Assembly: GCA_016786465.1 (NCBI GenBank)
Contig: JAEUWC010000003.1
Coordinates: forward strand, 1 to 64,000
DNA from: Bdellovibrionales bacterium
Lineage (GTDB): Bacteria; Bdellovibrionota; UBA1018
Reading direction: 5' to 3'
DNA length: 64,000 nucleotides
A program made the translations under genes and the position numbers. A model generated the notes under the pieces. That model was not told the origin of the DNA. It ran no database searches and saw only the letters and a list, made by a program, of their open reading frames with translations. This document shows positions 29,751 through 58,817 of the stretch, one piece after another. Each line of letters starts with the position of its first letter. Within the stretch, counting starts at the first letter, position 1.

Positions 29751-30062
29751 ATGAAAAAGAATATTTCCCCTCATTTTCACTTCTTCCAGGCGTTATCGAT
29801 GGCCATTCCTTTGGCCCTTGCCCTGGCAGCAGCATATGGATCGATGGCTGAAGCCGGGCGCGAAGGAAGTGCGCTTGTGAATCGAATCGAACAGCAAAAC
29901 CAGGTTTACCTAGCGAAAAACGATACGACGGCATCTGCGGTTCGTAATGCCGAGATCATCACCGGCGACACCATCACGGAAACTCAGGCAGCTTCGGAAG
30001 AAGCGGCTCAGGTTTCGTGTAACGGTGACGCTTGTGTTTCGGTTCAAAGTCCTGGGCAGTAG
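29751..30062 (+). CDS. Small exported protein, unknown
   Basis: This 103-aa protein has a signal peptide (LSMAIPLALALAAAYGSMAEA). The mature part is polar, threonine- and glutamate-rich, with two cysteines (SCNGDACVS) near the C-terminus. A perfect AAGGAGGT at 29739-29746 and a consensus -35 promoter suggest high expression. Its end overlaps the convergent SelO-fusion gene by 19 bp. Confidence 0.75.
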   Translation: MKKNISPHFHFFQALSMAIPLALALAAAYGSMAEAGREGSALVNRIEQQNQVYLAKNDTTASAVRNAEIITGDTITETQAASEEAAQVSCNGDACVSVQSPGQ

Positions 30063-33000
30063 CGAAGAAAGGCGCATCTGCATCGGTTGTAAAGACTTGG
30101 ATCTTTGACTTTGCGCGGACCTATCGAGCCGTCCAGAATCATCGAGGCTTGACTTAGGTCCGCGTCCAAACCTTGCCATTTTTCATTTTCAAGAACACCC
30201 GTGATTCTGGGAGTGATCAGGTTTTCAATTCGGATAATCGACTGAAAGCGGTCCTGGGTCGCTTTCAAAACAGTTTCGGCATCCTTCGCCCCTTGGATGA
30301 TCTGATCCGGCGGTACAAAGTGGGATCCATCCAGGCGCCTTTGATCATTTCGTTGAAGCGCCATTTCTAGCGGTGCTTCGATGCGAATGTTTTGCATCAC
30401 CGCCTTGGGTGCTAGCTTTGCCATTTCGTCCAGCTGCAAAAGCGTTCCATTTAAATTTCTAAAACTTCCTTGAACAATGATGTTCTTTCCGGCGCGCAAT
30501 GCATCCACGACCAAGGCCCAAGCTTGATTCACGCTTGGGTAATGCATCAGATCAGCCGCATATGCAGGATCACTGCTTCGGGCATAGGTCGGAGCCTTCA
30601 ATGTAAAGAGATCTGGGTCGATGACGACAAAGTCCTTCACCTGAATTCCACCTTCTTCGGCCAGCAATTTCAGAACGGTCGACTTTCCAGACCCCATGGT
30701 TCCGGTAATCCAAAGAATTTTTTGAGTGCTTGCAGTGGGGGCGTTATCGATCAGTTTCTTTCGGGTTGCCTGATACACGGCTTCATCTTCGGGTTGGATT
30801 CCCAGCTGCCCAAGTTCAGCATCCCGCGCCCAAATTCCTTTGAAGGATTCTGCGTTTCGGGCTCGGGTCGCGTAGGATTGGGGTGACTGGTTCAGATAGT
30901 GCCAGTGATCCAATTCGCGGTTTCCGCCAAAATACCCTAGATGGGTGCCTTCTTCCTTGGTCGTAGAAAGCAAACTTCCCTTTTCTTCCCAAGGAAGCTT
31001 TTCAATTTCATTTGCTAGTTTGTCGATTCCATTCTTTCCAAGCGCCTTGTAGATATGTGAATCCGCGTTGGAAATGTCCAAGGTCGACACGGACAGATTC
31101 TTCGAATTCAGTTCATTGTGAACCACCTTTAAGGCTTCATCATCGACCAAGCTTCCTTGGATGATCGCAAAGCTTCCGCTTTGCGCCCGTTTCCGAAGTC
31201 GCTGGTAAAGTTCATCAGAACCTAGAATCGTGTCTTTCCAGGTGTGATTCGACTGAAAGCGATCAATCGCGGCGTATCCCCACTGACTTTTTGGATCGAA
31301 AAAATCATGCACGAATGTCGCAGTGGCAGGGTCACGGCTGATATTGGTCTTGGCTTCTTGGTAAGTTGTCTTCAGCTGCTGGATGAATTCGTCTTCTGAC
31401 CATTCGGCTTTGGGTTTCCAGGTTCGATAGCCCGGAGCTTCTCCAAAGAAAAGCCGGGCCAGGAATTCGCGGCGGCTAGGTATTTCTGCGGATAACTTCA
31501 ACGCCTTTTGATTCAGCTGGCAGACCTTTTCATCAAAATCCAAAAAGATTCCCAGCTTGAAGTCGCCCACGGCGAAAGCGTTCAGTGCTCGAAATGATCC
31601 GACACCGATGTACGCGCCTGTCTTCTTTTTAAGCTGGTGATAGAAAAGATCAGGGCGGAATTCGTTGGGCGCCATTCCGTTGCCTTGGGAAATCCCATGG
31701 CCCGCGCGGATGATTGGGGCCAGGCCACCGGTACGATTGGCTAAGGTTCCGACCGTGGACGCATTCTGATCCGCGTTTCCAGTGGCCAGTTGCAAGGTCT
31801 GATCGATCAGGCTTCGAACCAACGATGCGTCGCCTGATTTTTCATAATCAGCAATGACTTTGAAATTCGCATCCATGGCTTTCCATCGATACAGTTCAGG
31901 GTGCGGGGCATTTAGTTTCTTTGCCCGATCGACAAAGGCTGGATTAGCCGTCGTTTTTTTCATCAACGCCAGGTAGCCTTGGGCCAGGGTTTGTCGCCAT
32001 TTGGCGAACTGGGTACCAGGAATGTATCGCGCCAGCGTGTTTTCGATAGCAGTTGGTCTTCCTTGGGTTGTTGCTAGGTCGACAAACAAAGCGTTCACAT
32101 CAAATTTTTGAAGTTTTTCAGGCACCGTATAGCGGGCTTTTACTTTTTCAGACCCATAGTCCGCTAGTTTCGCTAGTTCGTCGCCCAGTTTGCGAATCTC
32201 GGGGTCCGAAACCAGATTTTGGGCTTCTTTGCGATCGACTCCAAGCAGGATGATGAATTCCTTGGCCACGGATTCGGAATAGCGACTGCGAAAAGTTTTT
32301 TCTGAAAGATTCGGTTCCGGAAAGAACTTCTTCAGATTCTTTGGGACGGTTTCTTGGACTTCTTCGATGAAGTCGTGAACCAGGGTTTCGATGAATTCGC
32401 TGATTTCTCCGTTTTCTTGAACGTGATCTAGAACCTGAATGCGTCCGTAGCCGGGTTGGGCTGTCATCGTGCCAAAATCAATCATTCGCCCAGTCAGTTC
32501 GATATTCGATTGGCTGGTGGCGCCGTGGTACATGCGGTTGGCGTAAAGGTAAGCGTACTGTTCTGCGATTCTTTGAATGTAAATCTGAAGGCCCTGGCGA
32601 ATCTTGTCGCCATCAGAAAGCCCGGACGGCAGGTCAAAGATTTTACCTAGGGTTTTGGCAAAGTATTTACCCGTGGCGACCAGTCTTGCCGGTTCGCTTT
32701 TTTTCATTTTTTCACCGCTCCCAAAAGGGGACTTCATGAAATGAGCCGGCCGCAGCGAACTTTCGCGAATCACAAGAACATCTTTTTGAACCGTTCCGCC
32801 GCCGAGCTGGGTCCAAGTTCCACGATCAATCAGCGCCAGCACGCGGTTACTTCCGTGCGGTGTTCCTTGATTCACCTGGGACCAGATGACTTCACGAATG
32901 GCTTCTTCAATTGGGACGGTTCCGTTTGAATGGCTTTTTCCCTGGGTTTCTCCGACCAGGGTTGTCGCCCCCAGTCCCTTGATTTGAATTCCGCCTTTTT

Positions 33001-33367
33001 CGGCGGCGCGACCGCTTCCCCAGTTTTCACCAATTCCGGTGCCGCCGTAACGGTCGGCATAGACGGTTGCCGTTTCTTCGGTAAAGGCGCTGGGCGCGTC
33101 CGTTGGGTTTGGAATTCCCCACGCGAAAGCATCCAAGATGTCCTGGTCTTTTTCACCGGCCAGTGAAGGATGAACCCAAAGCAGTTTGGGATGGGCCAAT
33201 CTTTTTGCGGTATGAGCGATGTACGATTCTTCGGGAAGTGTTTTCCCGATGCTGGCGGGCTTTCCTTGAGCAAGATCCCGGACGCCCTTTCCCGCAAGGA
33301 CCGGGGTGGGCGAAAAGCCAAGCGGCAAGGTCAGCGAAAGGGTTAGGACTAAAAGACGGACGATCAT
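30044..33367 (-). CDS. Exported SelO-like AMPylase domain fused to a P-loop kinase domain
   Basis: This protein is about 1107 aa from the ATG at 33367; a GTG at 33394 adds 9 residues, and the numbering here uses that GTG. The signal peptide ends near TPVLA at residue 34. Residues 95-330 carry SelO (YdiU) motifs: YGGTGIGENWGSGR, IQIKGLGATTLV with K139, EEAIREVI, then HG at 290-291, N297 and DFG at 306-308, matching the HG..N..L.G...DYG nucleotide and metal site. SelO transfers AMP from ATP to proteins. The C-terminal part has Walker A GTMGSGKST at 898-906, with VIDPD and NIIVQGSF, like zeta-toxin or chloramphenicol-phosphotransferase-type kinases. The middle (about 550-880) is unassigned. An exported two-enzyme protein suggests an effector acting outside the cell. 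Confidence 0.75.
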   Translation of the reverse strand: MIVRLLVLTLSLTLPLGFSPTPVLAGKGVRDLAQGKPASIGKTLPEESYIAHTAKRLAHPKLLWVHPSLAGEKDQDILDAFAWGIPNPTDAPSAFTEETATVYADRYGGTGIGENWGSGRAAEKGGIQIKGLGATTLVGETQGKSHSNGTVPIEEAIREVIWSQVNQGTPHGSNRVLALIDRGTWTQLGGGTVQKDVLVIRESSLRPAHFMKSPFGSGEKMKKSEPARLVATGKYFAKTLGKIFDLPSGLSDGDKIRQGLQIYIQRIAEQYAYLYANRMYHGATSQSNIELTGRMIDFGTMTAQPGYGRIQVLDHVQENGEISEFIETLVHDFIEEVQETVPKNLKKFFPEPNLSEKTFRSRYSESVAKEFIILLGVDRKEAQNLVSDPEIRKLGDELAKLADYGSEKVKARYTVPEKLQKFDVNALFVDLATTQGRPTAIENTLARYIPGTQFAKWRQTLAQGYLALMKKTTANPAFVDRAKKLNAPHPELYRWKAMDANFKVIADYEKSGDASLVRSLIDQTLQLATGNADQNASTVGTLANRTGGLAPIIRAGHGISQGNGMAPNEFRPDLFYHQLKKKTGAYIGVGSFRALNAFAVGDFKLGIFLDFDEKVCQLNQKALKLSAEIPSRREFLARLFFGEAPGYRTWKPKAEWSEDEFIQQLKTTYQEAKTNISRDPATATFVHDFFDPKSQWGYAAIDRFQSNHTWKDTILGSDELYQRLRKRAQSGSFAIIQGSLVDDEALKVVHNELNSKNLSVSTLDISNADSHIYKALGKNGIDKLANEIEKLPWEEKGSLLSTTKEEGTHLGYFGGNRELDHWHYLNQSPQSYATRARNAESFKGIWARDAELGQLGIQPEDEAVYQATRKKLIDNAPTASTQKILWITGTMGSGKSTVLKLLAEEGGIQVKDFVVIDPDLFTLKAPTYARSSDPAYAADLMHYPSVNQAWALVVDALRAGKNIIVQGSFRNLNGTLLQLDEMAKLAPKAVMQNIRIEAPLEMALQRNDQRRLDGSHFVPPDQIIQGAKDAETVLKATQDRFQSIIRIENLITPRITGVLENEKWQGLDADLSQASMILDGSIGPRKVKDPSLYNRCRCAFLRYCPGL

Positions 33368-33407: not shown

Positions 33408-33670
33408 TTGCAGGTGTCGGAAGTCTGTCGGATTTGTGCGGCGATGCCGGTCGGGATCTCTCTGTGCAGGTGTCGGAAGTCTGTCGGATTTGTGCGGCGC
33501 ACCCAGGATTCGGGACCGCCGACCCACCGCCGTTGGATTTCCGACACAGTTCCGACAACTGAACAGAGGGGGCGGGGGCGACGCGTCCTTGGATTTCCGA
33601 CACAGTTCCGACAACTGAACAGAGGGGTTAGGGGCGTCCCGCCCTTGGATTTCCGACACACTTCCGACAG
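33408..33670. repeat. Cluster of five TGTCGGA-type repeat units (locus A)
   Basis: Two forward units (33410-33435 and 33462-33491) and three reverse units (33535-33566, 33591-33622, 33647-33670) share the core TGTCGGAAsTsTGTCGGA, most with a CTGTkCAG flank. Each unit is two TGTCGGA copies 11 bp apart. A further half-unit (TTGTCGGATTTTG) lies at 33375, inside the start of the SelO-fusion gene. The cluster fills the 325-bp gap between divergent genes. Opposite orientations allow a large stem. Confidence 0.85.
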
Positions 33671-58624: not shown

Positions 58625-58817
58625 CCCTGTGCAGTTGTCGGAACTGTGTCGGATTCTGGCGGATGCCCCACGGGTTGCGCTCCCTGTGCAGCTGTCGGAA
58701 CTGTGTCGGAAATTGGGCCGTCAGGTGGGGTCCGACAGACTTCCGACAACTGCACAGAGTGATCGGACACACCTGCAGGCCGCCCAAGTCCGACAGACTT
58801 CCGACAACTGCACAGGG
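58625..58817. repeat. Cluster of four TGTCGGA-type repeat units (locus B)
   Basis: There are two forward units (58625-58655 and 58682-58714) and two reverse units (58730-58758 and 58788-58817). Each has CTGTGCAG followed by TGTCGGAAsTsTGTCGGA. The forward units are followed by reverse ones, so the whole locus can fold as a large stem. It fills the gap between convergent genes. The same unit recurs 25 kb away at 33408-33670. Confidence 0.88.

Follow-up and report, generated by a model that had tools for sequence, protein, structure and literature searches.

A lineage-specific, dispersed composite inverted repeat built from paired TGTCGGA heptamers in a Bdellovibrionales genome

The genome of this Bdellovibrionales bacterium carries intergenic arrays of paired TGTCGGA heptamers that are dispersed over 11 loci, follow a fixed geometry with two unlike arms, hold their heptamers under constraint, and are absent as arrays from the relatives searched. 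We consider, with a probability of about one half, that these arrays form a lineage-specific dispersed composite inverted repeat, mobile or once-mobile, in which the heptamer pairs are putative protein-binding sites. By analogy, the best reading would be a family comparable to BIMEs and MITEs, but not REP. The geometry of the family is precise and unusual, and in its pattern of conservation the recognition sites stand apart from the filler.

Architecture of the repeat

In the window, that is, the whole stretch of 64,000 nucleotides that was analysed, the pattern TGTCGGA-N4-TGTCGGA with up to three mismatches gave nine matches, against a mean of 0.9 and a maximum of 5 in 100 shuffles, and all nine were exact. 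Five of them (33415 and 33471 on the plus strand; 33540, 33596 and 33652 on the minus strand) formed a first cluster, 33415-33669, between the divergent starts ATG 33367 (minus) and ATG 33693 (plus). The other four (58636 and 58693, plus; 58731 and 58789, minus) formed a second cluster, 58636-58806, between the convergent ends of a HAD hydrolase gene (58612) and a peroxiredoxin gene (58825). The features of the two loci are as follows.

First locus
33415..33432, plus: heptamer pair, outer forward unit, gap AGTC
33462..33469, plus: CTGTGCAG box before the inner forward unit
33471..33488, plus: heptamer pair, inner forward unit, gap AGTC, 56 bp from the outer unit
33540..33557, minus: heptamer pair, inner reverse unit, gap ACTG
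33559..33566, minus: CTGTTCAG box of the inner reverse unit
33596..33613, minus: heptamer pair, middle reverse unit, gap ACTG
33615..33622, minus: CTGTTCAG box of the middle reverse unit
33652..33669, minus: heptamer pair, outermost reverse unit, gap AGTG, without a full box
Second locus
58627..58634, plus: CTGTGCAG box before the outer forward unit
58636..58653, plus: heptamer pair, outer forward unit, gap ACTG
58684..58691, plus: CTGTGCAG box before the inner forward unit
58693..58710, plus: heptamer pair, inner forward unit, gap ACTG
58731..58748, minus: heptamer pair, inner reverse unit, gap AGTC
58750..58757, minus: CTGTGCAG box of the inner reverse unit
58789..58806, minus: heptamer pair, outer reverse unit, gap AGTC
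58808..58815, minus: CTGTGCAG box of the outer reverse unit

An earlier sequence-only reading had described five units of two heptamers 11 bp apart ahead of the gene that it called a SelO fusion, and a recurrence at 58625-58817, and the exact pairs agree with both descriptions. The CTGTkCAG flank that it assigned to all five units was found at 33471, 33540 and 33596, and the two outermost units lack a full copy. It had also placed the units head-to-head between divergent genes; the genes are divergent as described, and the units in fact point toward each other. The neighbouring gene at 30047-33367 (minus), then labelled a SelO fusion, had Pfam matches to DUF7790 and to a zeta-toxin/AAA kinase domain and reached no SelO model.

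Each unit consists of two head-to-tail words 11 bp apart, which is one helical turn, and a box of approximately CTSTGTKCAGY precedes the inner units. The spacing between units of the same arm (n=22) was 56 bp (10), 57 bp (11) or 58 bp (1), and a copy typically contains 2+2 units. The arms converge, forward then reverse, in all ten two-armed loci, for which the probability would be 0.001 if both orders were equally likely. The 4-bp gaps differed between arms in 9/10 of these loci: one arm, which may be the forward or the reverse one, has an ACTG-like gap, and its partner has AGTN or, once, TGTT. The arms are therefore distinguishable ends. At C1:10145 the units are expanded to 10, 8, 9 and 2 tandem heptamers with the 11-bp period. 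The interiors between arms range from 8 to ~570 bp and share no visible homology among copies. At C3:184649-185378, the arms lie ~570 bp apart and enclose the gene of a 199-aa HTH protein, whose 3' end runs into the forward arm; the arm encodes the final ~40 residues of this gene (L034:6136-6735), and ~157 residues precede them. As an autonomous partner of the repeat the HTH gene was rejected, its homologues in relatives looking like ordinary chromosomal genes.

Distribution in the genome and the phylum

The whole genome (3,633,514 bases, 3.63 Mb, in 30 contigs) was searched with exact and then relaxed patterns and by inspection. The pattern TGTCGGAANTNTGTCGGA had 29 exact matches and the reversed control pattern had none. 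The family comprises 11 array loci and two lone degenerate pairs, listed here by contig.

C1:10145-10803: array between convergent genes
C1:110852-111069: array between divergent genes
C3:146866-147025: array between codirectional genes
C3:184649-185378: array between convergent genes, HTH gene enclosed
C9:31562-31695: array between codirectional genes
C10:26888-27099: array between codirectional genes
C19:54473-54629: array between codirectional genes
C21:33415-33669: first window cluster, between divergent genes
C21:58636-58806: second window cluster, between convergent genes
C23:207471-207544: one arm, in the clpA-aat gap
C29:129470-129706: array
C4:117272 and C13:38863: lone degenerate pairs

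All 11 array loci are intergenic or overlap at most a gene end, and the dispersal that had been proposed from two sites extends well beyond them. Chance or a single local duplication, for which tandem growth within the arms and nothing else speaks, is refuted by the 11 loci and the empty control. Because the flanking genes are divergent, convergent or codirectional, a promoter-specific operator does not explain the family; the idea of a regulator site in a promoter region, also raised earlier, fails as a general answer, since several copies lie between convergent genes.

Arrays of TGTCGGA pairs were present in one of 369 phylum genomes and in none of the 368 relatives. Three other phylum genomes among the 369 had a single pair match each, and a search of the taxonomic order that tolerated one mismatch gave only a few scattered matches outside this genome. 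In a survey of 1.23 Mb of the genome itself, this was the sole repeated pair-array family, one weak match aside, and 800 kb surveyed in a family neighbour held no comparable arrays of any word. No sequence similar to the arrays was found in phage and plasmid collections. A pattern scan of 257 Gb of genome contigs returned at least 115 stretches with a match, against ~120 expected by chance by our own estimate; apart from a Woeseiaceae/Halieaceae repeat they are at chance level, and they were not taken to indicate relatives. In Woeseiaceae/Halieaceae genomes (nine stretches and similar ones), a conserved block that ends near GCACAACTGATGTCGGAAATTTGTCGGA and contains the same heptamer pair is repeated, sometimes near integrase-like or transposase-like genes that were named by eye from sequence; it may be a separate repeat family.

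Conservation and folding of the units

Identity between loci was 97-98.5% for the heptamers, 88% for the box, 63% for the 4-bp gap and 38-41% for the inter-unit DNA, where ~28% is expected from base composition. Conserved heptamers beside an inter-unit identity of ~40% indicate that the pairs are under strong constraint. The inter-unit DNA carries a weak consensus at both edges, which was never reached in 20,000 shuffles, and therefore the units probably share ancestry, with only the heptamers and the box held since. No covariation between arms was seen by inspection, and arm-to-arm changes, such as TGTCGGG in one arm, were uncompensated, which favours double-stranded recognition over a hairpin.

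An element acting at the RNA level, in which a hairpin in read-through transcripts would protect mRNA 3' ends or terminate transcription, as in proposals made for REP, is an unlikely explanation. The window copies, as single strands, do fold far better than shuffles (z -7.8 and -4.9), but any inverted repeat would fold so. The 4-bp gaps are mismatched between arms at most loci and the TGTCGGG-type changes lack partners, one window copy lies between divergent starts, and the arms at C3:184649 are separated by a gene; Rfam gave no match at the arrays searched. No hairpin common to the inter-unit sequences was seen, and the pairs are not self-complementary. The alternation of a conserved repeat of ~29 nt with a poorly conserved spacer of fixed length, ~28 nt, also resembles a CRISPR-like mini-array. 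However, the 11 loci are dispersed, with one spacer per arm and opposed arms, the spacers, besides being duplicated inside arrays, have a weak consensus in common, and Cas1 was not found; with cas1 absent from the genome, a CRISPR array was excluded, and a CRISPR-like origin has a negligible probability.

The more serious alternative, which we still judge distinctly less probable than a mobile or once-mobile repeat, is a set of fixed architectural or regulatory sites of the host. By analogy with known direct-repeat sites, a protein binding the head-to-tail 11-bp repeats would bridge the arms and insulate, loop or silence the neighbouring DNA. The pho-box sites of OmpR/PhoB-type winged-helix regulators are 7-bp direct repeats with an 11-bp period, and this likeness was the reason for considering a host regulator. 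In favour, the heptamers are almost perfect across loci beside spacers close to random, which suggests selection in place; the 11-bp head-to-tail period extends to as many as 10 tandem heptamers (C1:10145), the arms show no compensatory changes, as double-stranded recognition would predict, and divergent promoters are covered at two loci. Unlike OmpR/PhoB-type operators, however, the arrays have convergent double arms and no tie to promoters, three loci (58636, C1:10145 and C3:184649) lying between convergent genes where no promoter is expected, and no regulator or other candidate binding protein was found. Chromosome-organising sites are usually conserved, but the arrays are absent from the 368 phylum relatives, and one arm lies within a demonstrable insertion alongside a Y1 gene. 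If a host protein does act on the repeat, the arrays would be sites, specific to this lineage, that organise or insulate the chromosome.

An arm and a Y1 gene in the clpA-aat insertion

The gap between clpA and aat measures 1,373 bp in this genome, a 1.4-kb insertion that holds one arm and an intact IS200-like Y1/RAYT-type gene. The Y1 gene (L040:6562-7218), with its HxH motif intact, lies ~0.5 kb downstream of the arm at C23:207471, and nothing was found on its other side. The search for a RAYT-type transposase suggested by the sequence-only reading thus recovered one in the same insertion as an arm. In 21 relatives with readable synteny clpA and aat are convergent, with a gap of -98 to +68 bp in 20/21 and of 778 bp in one, and therefore the arm and the Y1 gene are both in DNA gained there; we infer that they arrived together. 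This empty-site comparison concerns one locus of a family known from one genome, and synteny at the other array loci in the family neighbour was uninformative.

Five Y1_Tnp genes were found in the genome, four of them members of a family that occurs in multiple copies throughout the order. The chance that one of five Y1 genes falls within 700 bp of one of ~12 loci is ~2% by our own, post hoc estimate. No array was near the other four Y1 genes, and none was found at 29 Y1 loci of relatives. The idea, prompted by matches of the pattern scan, that the arrays are integrase arm sites was rejected, the seven integrase genes of the genome not being at array places. At ~7.6-8.4 kb of C23 (L164:4591-5391), a TnpA-REP-like gene is flanked by 42-nt inverted repeats, 79% complementary, and part of its flank (C23:8330-8400) recurs elsewhere in the genome, which suggests a second, more classical RAYT system.

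Comparison with known systems and a possible mechanism

What defines a REP sequence is a stem-loop together with a GTAG or CGTC tag (PMC3733652), and the enzyme TnpA-REP works on REP folded as a single strand (PMC8266576). The present family shares with REP/BIME and REPIN-RAYT systems its dispersed, intergenic and inverted units of two subtypes and a Y1/HUH gene beside one copy. It differs in its low copy number, its 11-bp paired words and 56-57 bp period, and in having neither a GTAG tag nor a stem-loop conserved among units; the 2.7 kb of arrays contained no GTAG, one CTAC, and CGTC/GACG at chance level. Compared with a REPtron, the arm stands on one side of a single Y1 gene, with nothing on the other, and the four other Y1 genes are bare. 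The earlier proposal of a REP/BIME-like mobile repeat therefore holds for the dispersal and the BIME-like layout, and does not for the tag and the stem-loop; the bare Y1 genes, and copies that keep their heptamers and lose nearly all else, count further against it.

Transposons of the Tn7/Mu/IS21 type have two unlike ends with several recognition sites each. The convergent arms at ten loci resemble the terminal inverted repeats of MITEs, and with MITEs whose ends are multi-site in this sense the family shares two unlike multi-site ends reading TGT...ACA. Against a mobile element stand the lack of a target-site duplication by inspection of the outer flanks, the exact outer ends being undefined, the lack of an outer boundary common to the copies by inspection, and interiors that, unlike those of recent MITEs, are non-homologous, one of them being an ordinary HTH gene. 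No parent element was found.

For the mobile or once-mobile repeat that we favour, the heptamer pairs would be double-stranded sites for a direct-repeat-binding protein, and the two unlike arms would be the left and right ends of the element. The family would have spread by insertion, and the best candidate for its mobiliser is the Y1/RAYT-type enzyme encoded near the arm in the clpA-aat gap. The arms would then lengthen or shorten via 11-bp and ~57-bp duplications. Judged from gene position, mobilisation by this neighbouring enzyme is plausible and, if true, would widen the range of RAYT-type recognition. A bolder and unlikely version posits that two-ended, mobile intergenic elements of a new class exist, in which an IS200-like Y1 enzyme would read paired heptamers through iteron-like ends, not REP hairpins, and which could enclose a gene, such as the HTH gene at C3:184649-185378.

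Searching the literature for the TGTCGGA heptamer gave nothing relevant. The closest published heptamer arrays found are the TAACTGA repeats of Beggiatoaceae, direct repeats that are mostly one-directional and close to start codons (PMC4679880). Both are intergenic, patchy in phylogenetic distribution and of no known binding protein, whereas the heptamers of the present arrays are paired across a 4-bp gap, stand in two convergent arms and show no tie to start codons. Arrays of TGTCGGA with periods of 8 and 11 bp, in some cases in both orientations, were also seen beside a large primase-like gene in several viral contigs and a Pseudomonas genome (five stretches), as arrays of prophages. They share the heptamer with the present family but occupy a single place per phage, by the replication gene, without 57-bp units or the box, and are probably replication iterons.
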